Below are positions 20,427 through 33,338 of a stretch of DNA of 64,000 nucleotides, piece after piece (positions within the stretch are counted from its first letter, which is position 1; each line of letters opens with the position of its first letter). The notes under the pieces are model-generated. The model did no database searches and was not told the DNA's origin. It was given only the letters and a program-made list of their open reading frames with translations. Source of the stretch: Balneicella halophila (GTDB lineage: Bacteria; Bacteroidota; Bacteroidia; Bacteroidales; Balneicellaceae); NCBI RefSeq assembly GCF_003096835.1, contig NZ_QENZ01000004.1, forward strand, positions 124,001-188,000, in the 5' to 3' direction. A program made the position numbers and the translations under genes.

Positions 20427-21926
20427 ATGAATCAAAATACATTAACAGCGAATTCTTTAGAACAATACTTAGGCAAACCTTCTTCAGAATTCAAAAGAGA
20501 CGACATCATTAAATTTATGGAAGACAATGGTATTGGTCTTTTGAATTTTCGTTATGTAGGAGAAGACGGTAAACTGAAAACCTTAAATTTTGCTCCAACG
20601 AATAAACAGCATCTGGAAGATATTCTTACTTTTGGGGAGCGTGTAGATGGATCTAGTTTATTCTCTTATATAGACCACGCATCTAGTGATTTATATGTGA
20701 TACCAAAATACCGTACTGCATTTGTGAATCCATTTTCAGAGTTGCCAACCTTGGATATTTTATGTTCATTTTTCACACCTGATGGCAAACCTTTAGAAAG
20801 CTCTCCGGAATATGTTTTACAAAAAACGTATGAATATTTTAAGAAAGAAACAGGCTATGTATTTAAGACATTGGGCGAGTTAGAATATTATATAAAAGGT
20901 TCTGTAGAGGATTTATACCCTGATAATGATCAAAAAGGCTATCATAGCTCTTCTCCATTTACTAAATACGAATACATCCGACAAGAAGCGATGGATTTGT
21001 TGGTGTTATGTGGAGGTAAGGTCAAATATGGACATTCTGAAGTGGGAACTTTTACTACTGATGATTATTTGTATGAACAACATGAAATTGAATTCTTAGC
21101 AGAAGAACCAGAACAAGCTATTGAGCATTTGATTCTGACAAAATGGATTTTAAGAAAAATCTGTGATAGAGAAGGTTTAATGATCAGTTGGGCACCTAAA
21201 ATTACAGAAGGAAAGGCAGGCAGTGGATTGCATTTTCATATGCAATTAGAAGATGAGGGTAAAAATATCATGCTTAAAGATGGTGAATTATCAACCGAAG
21301 CCAAGAAAATGATAGCAGGTATTTTAGATGCGGCAGGAGCATTAACAGCATTTGGAAATACTGTACCAACAGCCTATTTACGCCTTGTTCCGGGACAGGA
21401 GGCACCAACCTATGTTTGCTGGGGGTATAGAAATAGATCTGCATTAGTGCGCGTGCCACTGGGCTGGAGTGCAAATGTTGATATGGCAAAAATTGCTAAT
21501 CCGAATGAAACAGCTGATGCTCCACAAGGCGTGGTTCGTCAAACAGTTGAATTTCGTGTGCCTGACGGATCAGCTGATGTTTATTTATTAATGGCTGGAC
21601 TTATTACAGCAACACTGCATGGTTTGAAAATGGATAATGCCTTAGAACTAGCTGATCAAACTTTTGCATCTATGAATATTTTCAGTGAAGATTTTAAAGA
21701 GAATTTAAAGAAATTAGAAGAATTACCCGGTAATTGCTATGAATCCGGCGAGGTATTGTTAGCAAAACGTAATATTTTCGAACAATTTGGATTTTTCCCA
21801 GCAGGATTGATAGAAAGTACCGCTCAAAAATTAAAAGCTTATAACGATCAGCAATTAAGTGAGCGCTTACAAGGAGATGAAGAAGGAATTAAGATTATCG
21901 TAGAGAAATTTATGCATTGCATGTAA
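20427..21926 (+). CDS. glnA: Glutamine synthetase
   Basis: A 499-residue enzyme making glutamine from glutamate, ammonia and ATP. The beta-grasp N-terminal part ends near TFGERVDGSS, followed by catalytic motifs: LGELEYYI, GHSEVGTF, EQHEIEF, GSGLHFHM, YLRLVPGQEAPTYVCW with NRSALVRVP, and VEFRVPDGSADVY. These correspond to the metal, ammonia and nucleotide sites of GSI enzymes, but the spacing between the EV and EIEF motifs is longer than in E. coli GlnA, as in the Bacteroidota form. The usual adenylylation-site sequence NLYDLP is not visible, so control by adenylylation is unlikely. Single-gene unit with its own -7 box and terminator. Confidence 0.93.
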   Translation: MNQNTLTANSLEQYLGKPSSEFKRDDIIKFMEDNGIGLLNFRYVGEDGKLKTLNFAPTNKQHLEDILTFGERVDGSSLFSYIDHASSDLYVIPKYRTAFVNPFSELPTLDILCSFFTPDGKPLESSPEYVLQKTYEYFKKETGYVFKTLGELEYYIKGSVEDLYPDNDQKGYHSSSPFTKYEYIRQEAMDLLVLCGGKVKYGHSEVGTFTTDDYLYEQHEIEFLAEEPEQAIEHLILTKWILRKICDREGLMISWAPKITEGKAGSGLHFHMQLEDEGKNIMLKDGELSTEAKKMIAGILDAAGALTAFGNTVPTAYLRLVPGQEAPTYVCWGYRNRSALVRVPLGWSANVDMAKIANPNETADAPQGVVRQTVEFRVPDGSADVYLLMAGLITATLHGLKMDNALELADQTFASMNIFSEDFKENLKKLEELPGNCYESGEVLLAKRNIFEQFGFFPAGLIESTAQKLKAYNDQQLSERLQGDEEGIKIIVEKFMHCM

Positions 21927-26796: not shown

Positions 26797-26836
26797 CACA
26801 CGCTTTAGGAAAGAAAAATCGTAAAATTAAGATAAG

Positions 26837-26995
26837 ATGAAAAGAACATTTCAACCATCGAATAGAAAGAGAAAAAATAAGCATGGCTTTAGAGCTAGAA
26901 TGGAATCTGTAGGAGGACGCTCTGTTTTAGCTGCTAGACGTGCGAAAGGACGTAAGAAATTAACTGTATCTGACGAGCCAAGACATAAGAAATAG
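26837..26995 (+). CDS. rpmH: 50S ribosomal protein L34
   Basis: A 52-residue basic protein beginning [20 protein letters not shown] and containing [24 protein letters not shown], the invariant L34 sequence, with a short Bacteroidota-type C-terminal tail. The frame from the ATG at 26837 to the TAG at 26993-26995 is open. It has its own promoter box and a terminator just downstream, so it is a single-gene unit. dnaA and rnpA are not adjacent, unlike the gammaproteobacterial order. Confidence 0.97.
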
Positions 26996-27031
26996 TTAGT
27001 TATAGCTTAATTTATTCAACAATCCATAAAG

Positions 27032-27056
27032 GGACATCAGTTCAATGCTGCTGTCC
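27032..27056 (+). terminator. Rho-independent terminator after rpmH
   Basis: GGACATCAG pairs with CTGCTGTCC (one mismatch) around TTCAATG, followed by a six-base T-run. Confidence 0.8.
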
Positions 27057-27078
27057 TTTTTTGTTCCTATAATTTTTG

Positions 27079-27086
27079 TAACTTTG
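27079..27086 (+). promoter_or_regulatory. -7 promoter box for the peroxiredoxin gene
   Basis: TAACTTTG matches TAnnTTTG, 25 bases before the ATG at 27112. A TTTG lies 15 bases further upstream, closer than usual. Confidence 0.45.
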
Positions 27087-27111
27087 GGTGTAAACTGTAA
27101 AACATGAACTA

Positions 27112-27576
27112 ATGACACAACTAAAAGAAGGCTACAAAGCACCTTATTTTGAAGGGAAAAATCAAGATGATAAGCTAATAAAATTATCGGATTACGAAGG
27201 CAAGAAGTTGATATTGTATTTCTACCCAAAAGATAATACTGCTGGTTGCACTGCTGAAGCATGTAATCTAAATGATAACTATGCTGAACTTACTTCAAAA
27301 GGATTTGAAGTCTTAGGTGTGAGTCCAGATTCTATTGAGTCTCACCTGAAATTTATTGCAAAGCATAATCTATCTTTTAATCTGATTGCTGATACTGATA
27401 AAGAAATATTGGAGAAATATGGCGTTTGGGGTGAAAAAAATATGTACGGTAGAAAATATATGGGAGTGAAGCGTACGACTTTTATCATTGATGAAGATGG
27501 GACAATCATCAAAATATTTAAGAGAGTAAAAACGAAAGAGCATACACAGCAGATATTAGAAGCTCTTGAAAAGTAA
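27112..27576 (+). CDS. bcp: Thioredoxin-dependent thiol peroxidase (Bcp/PrxQ peroxiredoxin)
   Basis: A 154-residue peroxiredoxin. The active-site segment YFYPKDNTAGCTAEAC holds the peroxidatic Cys46 and the probable resolving Cys51, the C-x4-C spacing typical of Bcp/PrxQ. It reduces hydrogen peroxide and organic hydroperoxides in the cytoplasm with thioredoxin. Length is that of the family. Separate transcription unit between two terminators. Confidence 0.95.
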   Translation: MTQLKEGYKAPYFEGKNQDDKLIKLSDYEGKKLILYFYPKDNTAGCTAEACNLNDNYAELTSKGFEVLGVSPDSIESHLKFIAKHNLSFNLIADTDKEILEKYGVWGEKNMYGRKYMGVKRTTFIIDEDGTIIKIFKRVKTKEHTQQILEALEK

Positions 27577-27598
27577 AATCTTATTTTTCTATAACAAT

Positions 27599-27627
27599 AG
27601 CAGTGTTATCTTTTAGAGAACACTGCT
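27599..27627. terminator. Bidirectional terminator between bcp and the alginate-export porin
   Basis: AGCAGTGTT at 27599-27607 pairs perfectly with AACACTGCT at 27619-27627, followed by a T-run on the plus strand. The genes converge here. Confidence 0.8.
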
Positions 27628-27663
27628 TTTTTTGCTTCTGATAAATGAGCTGGAATTGTTTTA

Positions 27664-29010
27664 TTAAAATTGGAATCCCAGAGTGAATACAAAATGGGAT
27701 AAAGTTTTGTTATGACCACTTTCTTTCAAAAAGCTACCGGGAAATATAAGGTTTGACTCCAATTCCATATTTAGATAGTTATTGAATTGATAGCTAAAAG
27801 ACGCACCAACTTGATTTGCAATAAACTTCTCGCTATTATCAGATGGGAAACTTAAGATTAAAGGAGGATCATAGACTCCGTCTTTAGTAGAATAACGCCA
27901 AAAAGCAACATAGTCCATATTTACAGTTACTCTACCAATTTTACTTGATATTGAAGGATGGATAGCGATTAGATTCGAAGGACCGAAGTAAGCAACTTTA
28001 CCAAAATAAACTCCTCTGGGATACAGCCCATCAAATGTATTTAATGAGTTATCATCAGCTCTGTCATCTCCACTGATAACGTCTGCTTTTACCCCAAAAG
28101 TGAATGGATGAAGCGTTTTAAATTCTTTTTCTAAATTTAATGATATCGCGAAAGCATTGATAGTAGCTTCTCCGAATTTTCCTGTTTGGTAAATAAACTC
28201 ATTGTTATAATCTATTCCATGCCATTGCCCAAACATTCTCAACCCAAAAGAAGCTCTTTTATCATTTGCTGTATCAGAATCCCATTCTTTATTAAGCTCA
28301 TTTTTGTATAAAATATAGATATCAGTAGTATTGTTTTTATTCCATAACTGTGTCCAGTAAAGCGCTAAGAGTGTTTCATCTGTATTTAAAGCATCGTTGT
28401 CGAAAACACCCTGCTTTTGTTGCACCGGGATAGCGTAAAAACCCGTAACAGTAGTATTCTCACTATGGTATTGCCACTCTGCCATATCAAACGACAAACG
28501 CACATTAGGACCTTCACGAACATCTACTAACCGAGCACTGCCCAATCTCATGTTTTGCCTGCCCAAAAGTATGTGCCAATCTTTATTAAAATCATATTTG
28601 ATAAATAATTGATTAACATATAACTCATCTTCATCAACAGGAGAAATATGTTGCTTATTTGAAGTAAGGCTTGAATTAAGTTCTGCAAATAATTGAAATT
28701 TTGAATGAAACTTCAAATCGGCATGTAACATACCTCTATGCAATAGCCAGCTTTGTGTAGGAGCTATATCTTTTACGAAATTCTCATTTATGAAATGTTC
28801 TGACTGGAAACGGTAACTACCTCCAAAACTTAATTTAGTATTATTCCCTAATGGAATGGATTTCATTCTATGATAAAAATTTTCCTTAGAGATAATATGT
28901 ATGCTATCGTTTTGGCGTAAGAGTTCGAAAGATAATGTATTCCTTTCTTTTTGAGCGTAAAGAAAATAGGCGCTAAGAAGTAGTCCAAAAAGAGAGATAA
29001 GCTTTTTCAT
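27664..29010 (-). CDS. Alginate-export-type outer-membrane porin
   Basis: A 448-residue protein with a signal peptide (LISLFGLLLSAYFLYAQ) and the Alginate_exp pattern: SFGGSYRFQSEHF, HADLKFHSKFQLFAELNSS, LGRQNMRLGSARLVDVREGP and NTFDGLYPRGVYFGKVAYFG. Members are 18-stranded anionic porins; many act in uptake or export of unknown small molecules rather than alginate. No alginate synthesis genes are present. It is the last gene of a minus-strand group after an amidohydrolase and an isochorismatase-like hydrolase, so it may let their substrate through the outer membrane. A hairpin at 29094-29124 may reduce read-through into it. Confidence 0.88.
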   Translation of the reverse strand: MKKLISLFGLLLSAYFLYAQKERNTLSFELLRQNDSIHIISKENFYHRMKSIPLGNNTKLSFGGSYRFQSEHFINENFVKDIAPTQSWLLHRGMLHADLKFHSKFQLFAELNSSLTSNKQHISPVDEDELYVNQLFIKYDFNKDWHILLGRQNMRLGSARLVDVREGPNVRLSFDMAEWQYHSENTTVTGFYAIPVQQKQGVFDNDALNTDETLLALYWTQLWNKNNTTDIYILYKNELNKEWDSDTANDKRASFGLRMFGQWHGIDYNNEFIYQTGKFGEATINAFAISLNLEKEFKTLHPFTFGVKADVISGDDRADDNSLNTFDGLYPRGVYFGKVAYFGPSNLIAIHPSISSKIGRVTVNMDYVAFWRYSTKDGVYDPPLILSFPSDNSEKFIANQVGASFSYQFNNYLNMELESNLIFPGSFLKESGHNKTLSHFVFTLGFQF

Positions 29011-29093
29011 GTTTACAATATTGAGATATGATTAAAAATAAAATAAAAATCTGATTCTAAACAAGATTAGATGTTATTTTTTTGCAATATGAA

Positions 29094-29124
29094 AATGGGA
29101 TAGGTTTGTAATCCCTATCCCATT
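29094..29124 (-). terminator. Hairpin between amidohydrolase and porin genes
   Basis: A perfect 11-base-pair inverted repeat (AATGGGATAGG and CCTATCCCATT, nine-base loop), followed on the minus strand by TTTTC. It would act as a terminator or attenuator after the amidohydrolase gene. Confidence 0.65.
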
Positions 29125-29161
29125 CAAATTAGTATTCTATTAAAACAATCTTTAAAAACTA

Positions 29162-30964
29162 TTATTTAGTTTGATAGCCTCCGTAATACTTAACTGGAGA
29201 CCAATCAGGAATAATCGCTGGAAGTGATGGATTCATATTGGAATATTCTTCCGCACCATAAACTACTTTGCCATCTACTACAGTTAAGACTGATTGTAAA
29301 TCTTTAATTTGTTCTTCTGGAACTGAGAAGTAATCATCAGAAAGAATTGCAAAATCAGCATACATTCCATCTTCTAAAGTTCCTTTTACATCTTCTTCTT
29401 TAGACATCCATGCACTGCCGTGAGTATAAAGTGAAAGCGCCTCTTCGCGTGTTAGTTTATTATCTTCAGCAGCTAATTGCAAACCGCCAACTGTTTTTCC
29501 TGTTACCAACCAATACAATGCTGGCCAAGGATTGTAACTTGCTACACGAGTACCATCGGTACCAGCACCAACAGGGATACCCATATCTATCATTTTCTTG
29601 ATTGGAGGTGCATGTTGCGCTTTCGTTTCTCCATATCGTTCTACGAAAAATTCTCCGGCAAATACCATTCTAGATTGTACTGCTATACCACCATTAAGGG
29701 CTTTTATACGTGACAATTCACTATCTTTAATAGTTTCTGCATGGTCTATTAACCAACGATTGGCAACAAGTTCGCCATTGGTTTCTTCATTTACTTCTTC
29801 AATAACGTCTAGGATATCTGCAATAGTTTCTCCATAGGTTGCATGAATTCTAAATGGCCATCCTTTTTCAGCATGTAATCTCAATATTTTAGTCAAATCT
29901 TCTCTCCAAGTTGGTCTATCTTCCAAAAATGGTTGAGGAGCTAAAAAGTTTTCAAAATCACCGACACTCCAAGCTAAAAATTCACCACCACCTTCTAACT
30001 CATAACCATGATCTAAGTGTAAAGCTTCATTTTTACCTACAGTGTTATTTGCCATCCATTCTTGAAATTCTTCATATTCAGCTCCTTAGTTTTGAGGAAA
30101 TAAATAATAAGAGATTCTCATTGACATATCGCCATCTTCAGCTAAAGCTTTAGTTCCTACATAATCTTTTGGAAATTTATGACCACCACCACCTGCATCA
30201 ACTCCGCTTGTTAGTCCAAACTTGTTCAACTCTTTGTAGAAATGTTTTGTACTATTCACCATTTCATCTTGGCTCAATGGAGGTAGCCCGCCAATTCTAG
30301 GATATAAAATGCCCGGATTTGGTTCTGCTAAAAGTACACCAGTTAATTTACCGTCTGGGCCTTTTTCAAATCTGCTTCCTTCTGGAGCTTTAGTGTTTTC
30401 ATCAATGTTCATCGCTTCTAAACCGGCTTTGTTTAACCAGCCTCTACTGTAAAGGGATAATACGAATGTAGGTACATCTCCTGTGGCTTCGTTAATTTCT
30501 TCTACTGTTGGGAAACGATTTTCCTCAAACTGATATGGACTCCAGCCACCAATTACACGTACCCATTGTCCTTTAGGAGTACGTGCTGCTTGTTCTTTTA
30601 GCATTTCAAGAGCACGTTTCAATGATTTTACACCATCCCAGCGTAATTCAGCATTGAAAAAACGCCCGCCTCTAGTAAGGTGTAAGTGTGAATCATTAAG
30701 ACCAGGAATAAGGGTTCTCCCATTGGCATCAATTGTTTCTGTATTATCACCTTTAAGTTTTAGTACTTCTTCAGATGTACCTGTTGATGAAACCTTACCG
30801 TCTTTTACAGCAATAGCCTCAGCAATAGTGCGGGCATTATCCATCACAACGACTTTGGCATTAGTTACAATTAAATCTGCAGAATCAGAACTTTCACTAG
30901 AATTGTTTTCTTTACAAGAAACAATTAGTAATGTCGTGATAATTAAATATAATAATTTCTTCAT
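29162..30964 (-). pseudogene. Lipoprotein amidohydrolase (YtcJ-like) with in-frame stop
   Basis: One 600-codon frame encoding an Amidohydro_3-type metal-dependent hydrolase, broken by TAA at 30086-30088. The N-terminal part (292 residues from the ATG at 30964) has a lipoprotein signal (LLIVSC), the small beta domain (ADLIVTNAKVVVMDNART) and the metal motif NDSHLHL. The part after the stop, in the same frame, continues the barrel with RIHATYG, IDHAET and GAGTDGTRVASYNPW and ends in the closing beta domain (VLTVVDGKVVYG). Neither half alone holds all metal ligands, so the product is probably inactive unless the stop is read through or is a sequencing error. Substrate unknown; relatives are often placed with isochorismatase-like hydrolases, as here. 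Confidence 0.85.
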
Positions 30965-30988
30965 ATTTTTTTAATTTGAATTACAAAA

Positions 30989-31018
30989 GCTCCTGTCCTT
31001 TATGTAAAGGACAAGAGC
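30989..31018 (-). terminator. Hairpin between isochorismatase-like and amidohydrolase genes
   Basis: GCTCCTGTCCTTT and AAAGGACAAGAGC form a 12-pair stem with one mismatch and a four-base loop; the minus strand continues TTTTG. It is a likely terminator or attenuator inside the operon. Confidence 0.65.
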
Positions 31019-31036
31019 CTCAAAATTTGAATATTA

Positions 31037-31727
31037 TTAATGTTTTAGCATTTCTCTTGAGTATGGTACGCCAATACCATAAGCACCACCAAATCTCATG
31101 ATTAATAGGTTTACTGGCTCATAAGTTTCAGCTCTAGCCCAGTCACGTTGTAACTCTAATAAATATTGTAGAGATGTAATCGGTTTTGCTCCTGCTTGTA
31201 CCATTCTCTGTACAGCCATATCATGCGCCTCTTTTGATACGTCACCTGATGCATCTGTTATCACATATACATCATATCCATCATTCAAAGCTGACATAAC
31301 AGGACCTACTATACATACACTTGTCCATAAGCCTGCCATTACAAGTTTTTTCTTATTAAGACCAGTAATTGCTTTATGCGCATTTACATCTTCCCATGTA
31401 TTCATCGTAGTTCTATCAATATACTTGCTATGGTCTGGGTAGAACTCCTGAATTTCAGGGAATACTGGACCACTGAAGCTTTTCTCAGCAATAGTTGTTA
31501 CCACGGTAGGGATTTTAAAAATCTTAGTTGCACCAGCAACTATTCCCACGTTGTTGCGTAAAACTACTGGATCGATGACATTAACGGCAAATGCCATTTG
31601 TCCTTCATGATCAATCATCACTAGTGCATGATTGTCTGGTGATAATAGTTCCGGACTTGGTTTTTTGTGCGAACACACCAGTTAGTGTTGCAACAACTAA
31701 TAAAAGTGTTAATTTAATTGTTTTCAT
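31037..31727 (-). pseudogene. Exported YcaC-like isochorismatase-family hydrolase, frameshifted after signal peptide
   Basis: The main frame (31037-31678) encodes a cysteine hydrolase of the isochorismatase superfamily: HALVMIDHEGQMAFAV with the catalytic Asp, DRTTMNTWED, and LWTSVCIVGPVMSAL with the nucleophilic Cys, most like the YcaC branch. It has only a GTG to start from. Directly upstream, in another frame, the ATG at 31727 encodes a classic signal peptide (MKTIKLTLLLVVATLTGVFA then Q). Removing one base from the six-A run (six T on the plus strand, 31661-31666) joins the two as VFAQKPSPELL. I therefore read this as an exported hydrolase gene with a one-base insertion. The alternative is a cytoplasmic protein from the GTG. 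Catalytic residues are intact. Confidence 0.75.
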
Positions 31728-31788
31728 TGCTCTCATGTTTAAAAGGTTTAACTCTAAATTTGTTATGAATTAATTTCATTACTGACTA

Positions 31789-31805
31789 AATTCTGATACA
31801 GAATT
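31789..31805. promoter_or_regulatory. Inverted repeat AATTCTG-ATA-CAGAATT, possible operator
   Basis: A perfect 7-3-7 inverted repeat ending about 53 bases upstream of the ATG at 31736 of the isochorismatase-like gene. The position and symmetry suggest a dimeric regulator site; the regulator is not in the window. Confidence 0.4.
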
Positions 31806-31849
31806 AGAGATAATGTTTGCTAATTTTCAAAAAAATGATTAAGCAAATA

Positions 31850-31865
31850 TCTATATCGATATAGA
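31850..31865. promoter_or_regulatory. 16-base perfect palindrome, possible operator
   Basis: TCTATATCGATATAGA is fully palindromic and lies 114 bases upstream of the ATG at 31736. With the second inverted repeat nearer the gene, it could bind a dimeric regulator of the operon. AT-rich palindromes can also arise by chance. Confidence 0.4.
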
Positions 31866-32220
31866 AAAAAACTAAATTTTTTTGGGTGATTTTAGGTGTT
31901 ACGCATCGTCTGGCTAAAGACTGCCAAAAAGAGCTATAACCTATGATTTTATCTCTCAACAACTTATGTGATTTTTACTATAATAATGTATTTTATGATT
32001 TTGTATGATAAGTGCTTTTGAAATAAAATTAGCATAAAATGATAACATTACCTTCACATTTATTAGCCATTAGTTCTGGTTCTATTTATATCATTTTGAA
32101 ATTTCTCTATATATAAGAAAGAGAATTGACATTATTTAAATCTAAAAATTGTTAAAGAATGAGGTATTGGCATAATTTTAGCGGTAAATTATCTTGATAT
32201 ATTTATCAATTAATTTGAAC

Positions 32221-32865
32221 ATGATGGCAAAAACGGCAATACTTCTTGGTGGTACAGGTCTAACAGGGAGGCATTTATTAGAGCTATTGTTAAATAGTGC
32301 CGAATATGATAAAATAAAAGTCTATACACGCAGACCAACTGGTGTAAAACACAGCAAACTGCAGGAGACTATCTGTGACTTGTTAGAACTAGAAGAGCAA
32401 GAATCCTCTTTTTATGGTGATGTAGTGTTTTGTTGTATCGGAACTACTAAAAAGAAGACTCCTGATAAGAAAAAATACAAAGCGATAGATTATGGTATTC
32501 CTTCAACTGCATCTAGGTTAGCTTCGAAAAATAAAATCGGAACATTTGTTGTTATTTCAGCCTTAGGCGCTGATAAGGGTAGTTATATTTTCTATAATAA
32601 AACAAAAGGACAAATGGAAGAGGCGGTTTTGGCATCAGCGATAAAAAATACACTTATCTACAGACCCTCTTTTATATATGGAGAACGAGAAGAAAATCGG
32701 ATAGGAGAGAAAATAGGTATTCGGATTGCGAAAGTATTCAATCCTCTATTAATTGGAAAATTAAAGAAATATAAAGCTATTTCTGCTACAAATCTGGCTA
32801 AAGCAATGTATGATGGTGCATTATTTAAGTCTGGGCATCATATTATTTTCCGCGATGAAATGTAG
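32221..32865 (+). CDS. NAD(P)-binding SDR-like protein (TIP30/HTATIP2 type)
   Basis: A 214-residue atypical short-chain dehydrogenase. The N-terminus has the Rossmann motif LLGGTGLTGRHLLELLL; the middle has VVFCCIGTTKKK and VVISALGADKGS followed by YNKTKGQMEEAV, the YxxxK position, then YRPSFIYGER. This pattern fits the family of human HTATIP2 and bacterial oxidoreductases of unknown substrate. The ATG at 32221 is chosen over 32194, which adds residues unlike the family. The next gene, ohr, begins 50 bases later. Confidence 0.85.
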   Translation: MMAKTAILLGGTGLTGRHLLELLLNSAEYDKIKVYTRRPTGVKHSKLQETICDLLELEEQESSFYGDVVFCCIGTTKKKTPDKKKYKAIDYGIPSTASRLASKNKIGTFVVISALGADKGSYIFYNKTKGQMEEAVLASAIKNTLIYRPSFIYGEREENRIGEKIGIRIAKVFNPLLIGKLKKYKAISATNLAKAMYDGALFKSGHHIIFRDEM

Positions 32866-32915
32866 AAATAGTAATTAGATAAAACAGTTTATTAACATAT
32901 TAAAAAAAACGAATC

Positions 32916-33338
32916 ATGAAAAAGTTATACTCTACAAAAGCAACCGCAACAGGCGGTAGAGAAGGAAGAGTAAAATCAGAAGACGGAGTATTAGATTTTA
33001 AAGTTGAGGTGCCAAAAGAAATGGGAGGCAAAGGTGGTGAATACACCAACCCTGAGCAATTATTTGCAGCAGGTTATGCAGCCTGCTTTGGCAGTGCTCT
33101 AAATTTAGTGGCTAAAAAGTCAAGAACTAAATTGGAGAGCTCAGCAATCACCACGGCAGTGAGCATTGGTGATAATGGCAATGGAGGTTTTGAATTGGCT
33201 GTAGATATAGAAGCAGATATAAAAGGTGTTTCTCGAGAGGAAGCCCAGGAGTTGCTTGAGAAAGCGCATCAAGTTTGTCCTTATTCTAATGCAACTCGAG
33301 GTAATATTGAGGTAAATCTTTCATTAAAAGAAGAATAA
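32916..33338 (+). CDS. ohr: Organic hydroperoxide resistance protein (OsmC/Ohr)
   Basis: A 140-residue Ohr-type thiol peroxidase that reduces organic hydroperoxides using lipoyl-protein thiols. The two redox cysteines are Cys57 in GYAACFGSAL and Cys121 in HQVCPYSNATRGN, and TGGREGRVKSEDG near the start contains the conserved Arg. Its stop overlaps the next start by one base (TAATG), so the two are translationally coupled. Confidence 0.93.
   Translation: MKKLYSTKATATGGREGRVKSEDGVLDFKVEVPKEMGGKGGEYTNPEQLFAAGYAACFGSALNLVAKKSRTKLESSAITTAVSIGDNGNGGFELAVDIEADIKGVSREEAQELLEKAHQVCPYSNATRGNIEVNLSLKEE

Follow-up and report, generated by a model that had tools for sequence, protein, structure and literature searches.

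The operon headed by an exported YcaC-type hydrolase in Balneicella halophila is probably dispensable and in an early stage of pseudogenization, its hydrolase gene apparently having been inactivated recently. It lies in the 64,000-nucleotide stretch of contig NZ_QENZ01000004.1 analysed here (the window). The first gene of the operon is divided between two reading frames at a short run of adenines, with the following features:

31611 to 31736, minus strand: orphaned signal-peptide reading frame (MRAMKTIKLTLLLVVATLTGVFAQKTKSG...), with a stop after 41 codons
31661 to 31666, minus strand: six-A run at the frame break (T on the plus strand), exactly six in length
31037 to 31663, minus strand: frame of a YcaC-type isochorismatase-like cysteine hydrolase, otherwise intact

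Read from the ATG at 31736, the signal-peptide frame translates as MRAMKTIKLTLLLVVATLTGVFAQKTKSGTIITRQSCTSDD, and terminates at a stop codon at 31613–31611. A second in-frame ATG is located at 31727. The signal peptide comprises 23 residues and leads into the A run, after which the hydrolase resumes in the +1 frame, the two frames being offset by one base at 31666–31661. The sequence-only reading had placed a frame break between signal peptide and hydrolase at this run, and recomputation of the coordinates and frames showed that it was exact. Across 400 kb of this contig A6/T6 runs occur 809 times (the longest run being nine), so the six-A run is not a special tract, and it lacks the character of the hypermutable tract, unusual for its genome, of a phase-variable gene.

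The hydrolase is called as an open reading frame of 213 amino acids, from a GTG at 31678 to the stop at 31037. It matches the isochorismatase family (Pfam PF00857, E = 3.5e-22) and carries the domain over residues 9–177. The nearest solved structures are E. coli YcaC (PDB 1yac, E = 6.9e-34) and P. aeruginosa YcaC (PDB 4wgf/4wh0). The active site of YcaC is formed by Asp19, Arg84 and Cys118 (PMC4519933), and the window protein retains Asp19, Cys118 and an arginine aligned with Arg84 (Arg85 in P0001 numbering). Against the NCBIfam YcaC model NF041461 it scores 138 bits (E = 2.7e-40), below the curated cut-off of 310 bits, and so falls outside that equivalog. The Bacteroidota subfamily differs further from YcaC in possessing a signal peptide and in being encoded beside an amidohydrolase and a porin. 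The family residue is present at 77 of 78 near-invariant columns. Differences from the Gelidibacter sequence are ∼0.5 at third codon positions and ∼0.1 at second positions; the coding constraint still visible here says no more than that the lesions are recent.

A scan of contigs from one genome per species gave 80 relatives, and the frame layout was read in the 70 closest (L004–L072 and L074). These are nearly all Bacteroidota, with L004 and L006 labelled as gammaproteobacterial MAGs. In all 70 an open frame runs from a hydrophobic leader through the enzyme, typically reading FA/QKPSPELL at the junction, in agreement with the good signal-peptidase site that had been proposed for an in-frame gene. 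The Gln-Lys codons of the junction are CAAAAA in 34, CAGAAA in 10 and CAAAAG in 8 of the 80 relatives, while QKP is absent at this point in 28. The two-frame layout expected of a conserved programmed frameshift or slippage gene occurs in none of the 70 closest relatives, and neither a longer A run nor an out-of-frame copy was seen in any relative. The sequence-only reading had suggested comparing orthologues and had named a conserved cytoplasmic orthologue beginning at the GTG as one observation that would tell against it; all 70 encode a single-frame exported protein and none starts at that GTG. The break is not a chance juxtaposition, since the two parts share one frame in every one of the closest relatives. 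For the same reason, together with the absence of the GTG start, the exported single-frame protein is ancestral and the copy in the window is a frameshifted derivative.

Intact orthologues are found in Gelidibacter, Olivibacter, Algoriphagus and others (L005, L015, L071, L008 and L010), with hydrolases ∼78–81% identical to that of the window, amidohydrolases 71–80% identical, the same gene order and a porin downstream. Both enzyme genes are unbroken in these genomes, whereas in the window the first is frameshifted and the second carries a nonsense codon. Gelidibacter pelagius additionally has a leaderless isochorismatase paralogue (L005:4121-4762) directly upstream of the exported copy; the cytoplasmic form, where present there, is thus a separate gene. 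At E ≤ 1e-20 the hydrolase family is missing from 59 further genomes in the order, and so is dispensable. A search for a sister copy in 60 genomes (its own and these 59) and at the family level, where this genome is the only representative, gave none.

The remainder of the cluster lies downstream of the hydrolase:

29162 to 30964, minus strand: second gene of the operon, an Amidohydro_3 (YtcJ-like) lipoprotein gene (PF07969), interrupted
30086 to 30088, minus strand: premature in-frame TAA in the amidohydrolase gene, from comparison with 71 relatives
27664 to 29010, minus strand: third gene of the cluster, an Alginate_exp-type outer-membrane porin (PF13372, E = 1.7e-53), intact

The list of open reading frames splits the amidohydrolase into 30964–30086 and 30055–29162. 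These form one frame with a TAA in between, and the halves match positions 1–206 and 231–472 of PF07969. The codon aligned to the TAA encodes lysine in 49 of the 71 relatives (43 AAA and 6 AAG) and is a stop in none; among the ten nearest it is lysine nine times and glutamine once. The family residue is present at all 134 near-invariant columns of the amidohydrolase. Both enzyme genes of the operon are therefore disrupted where their homologues are intact, as in a pseudogene, and their lesions are young because near-invariant residues are nearly all retained. The sequence-only reading had covered the break in the hydrolase correctly, and the second broken gene of the operon had gone unnoticed.

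The order hydrolase, amidohydrolase lipoprotein, porin is conserved in many relatives, including Gelidibacter, Algoriphagus and Olivibacter, and a full-length homologue of the porin (58% identical) lies downstream in L005. The intact cluster occurs widely among Bacteroidota, and from its enzyme families it looks like an uncharacterised pathway for the uptake or breakdown of an amide-like compound. A literature search found no study of the hydrolase–amidohydrolase–porin cluster. In L006 (6751), L038 (6121-7233) and L012 (6913-6925) the amidohydrolase of this cluster also seems to carry a frameshift or to be shortened, reflecting either recurrent loss or sequencing error.

Other genes on the contig are also broken. 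An ab initio scan for interrupted frames over C4:1-400000, followed by Pfam analysis, identified at least four genes disrupted by nonsense or frameshift besides the window pair; the scan is incomplete, its strict form having missed the window's own pair.

L099:7771-9785 (G000:C4:307771-309785), plus strand: glutamine synthetase III in three pieces, with one nonsense codon and one frameshift
G000:C4:198902-200468 (L093/L094), minus strand: acyl-ACP thioesterase (TAG) and neighbouring ABC ATPase (frameshift), supported by Pfam
L084:13543-16827, minus strand: purple-acid-phosphatase-like gene with a TAA, supported by Pfam
G000:C4:368089-369387 (L102), minus strand: specificity subunit (HsdS) of a type I restriction system, interrupted in frame by a TAA close to the end, a weaker case

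A TonB-type gene with a TAG is a further weaker case. The thioesterase and ABC ATPase, both broken within 1.6 kb, make a second pair of this kind, and another glutamine synthetase, which is intact, is present in the window at 20427–21926. Besides that of the window, the scan gave only two clear frameshifts in the 400 kb. The mixture of TAA, TAG and non-homopolymer frameshifts is that produced by mutation and not by homopolymer miscalling. Reassignment of a stop codon was considered and dropped; long open reading frames end in TAA, TAG and TGA, and the lesions include both TAA and TAG. Base composition gave no clear signal of a foreign island.

An error of base calling or assembly, such that the true genome encodes an intact exported hydrolase, is unlikely. 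A single-base indel in a homopolymer is the commonest type of error, the draft assembly comprises 11 contigs and the hydrolase is otherwise well conserved. However, the adjoining lesion in the amidohydrolase is a nonsense substitution involving no indel, and the other broken genes of the contig have TAA and TAG nonsense codons and frameshifts that lack a long run. With 809 six-base runs in 400 kb set against two other clear frameshifts, a general homopolymer error is improbable. Sequencing error, one of three options offered by the sequence-only reading, could still account for the single base, but the adjoining nonsense codon and the other genes broken along the contig make it less likely. 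A second option, a phase-variable switch in which slippage at the A run alternates export of the enzyme with a silent or cytoplasmic state, is very improbable. The window does resemble the homopolymer phase-variable genes of Campylobacter and Neisseria in that its frame breaks at a run inside a coding region, here beside the signal-peptidase site, with a good junction in the +1 frame. It differs in that the run is short and of a kind ubiquitous in the genome, there is no length variation or out-of-frame copy among the relatives, and the partner gene is irreversibly broken. Slippage cannot reverse a nonsense codon, so the second gene would stay broken whatever a switch did to the first. A version in which this lineage turns export on and off reversibly, and in which the stop in the amidohydrolase arose as a separate strain-level event, is just as doubtful.

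It is scarcely credible that recoding at the run, by +1 ribosomal frameshifting or transcriptional slippage, still provides some exported enzyme. The A-rich run sits exactly on the frame junction and bacterial slippage at runs of A has been described (PMC1088944), but the run has six bases, and in many genomes selection against slippage is evident from a length of nine, transcriptional slippage being in general a concern from about that length (PMC1088944). The two-frame layout is shared with no relative. Recoding would also need a +1 shift, unlike the −1 shift of the usual slippery heptamers. A functional cytoplasmic enzyme, made from the GTG at 31678 or by reinitiation at the ATG at 31618 where the signal-peptide frame ends, is equally hard to credit. 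The hydrolase frame is open from the GTG, the ATG at 31618 shortly precedes the TGA at 31613–31611 in a layout that could permit coupling, and Gelidibacter has its leaderless paralogue beside the exported gene. Against this, the GTG start is used by none of the 70 closest relatives, the first codons read from it (MCSH) are the end of the signal peptide read out of frame, initiation at 31618 would leave out the N-terminal strand as far as the active-site Asp, and the operon partner of the putative cytoplasmic enzyme is likewise broken.

Fresh mutation is the best supported of the three options, given the ancestral exported form and the independent nonsense codon in the amidohydrolase gene that follows. 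On this pseudogenization, the ancestor would have had a constitutively exported YcaC-type cysteine hydrolase encoded by the first gene of the hydrolase–amidohydrolase lipoprotein–porin cluster. The signal peptide would have lost its frame through the gain of one base in the short A run, for which replication slippage is the simplest mechanism, and translation from the normal ATG would now give a 41-residue peptide ending at 31611. A separate nonsense substitution would have cut the amidohydrolase. With both genes cut, the pathway is probably non-functional, presumably under relaxed selection, and may be part of ongoing gene decay in the 2.09-Mb genome. The operon resembles recent bacterial pseudogenes, with few lesions (two hits) in an otherwise conserved sequence, shows no difference from them beyond the usual, and would represent an ordinary kind of event.

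The gene should be annotated as a frameshifted exported hydrolase and not as a GTG-started cytoplasmic protein, and the two amidohydrolase reading frames as a single interrupted gene; the lesions point to active gene decay in a small genome. An Rfam search of 26800–33000 revealed no RNA elements. The single result of a repeat scan upstream was a weak A/T-rich palindrome at 31832–31883 of the window, lying ∼100 bases ahead of the ATG of the signal peptide and perhaps due to chance.
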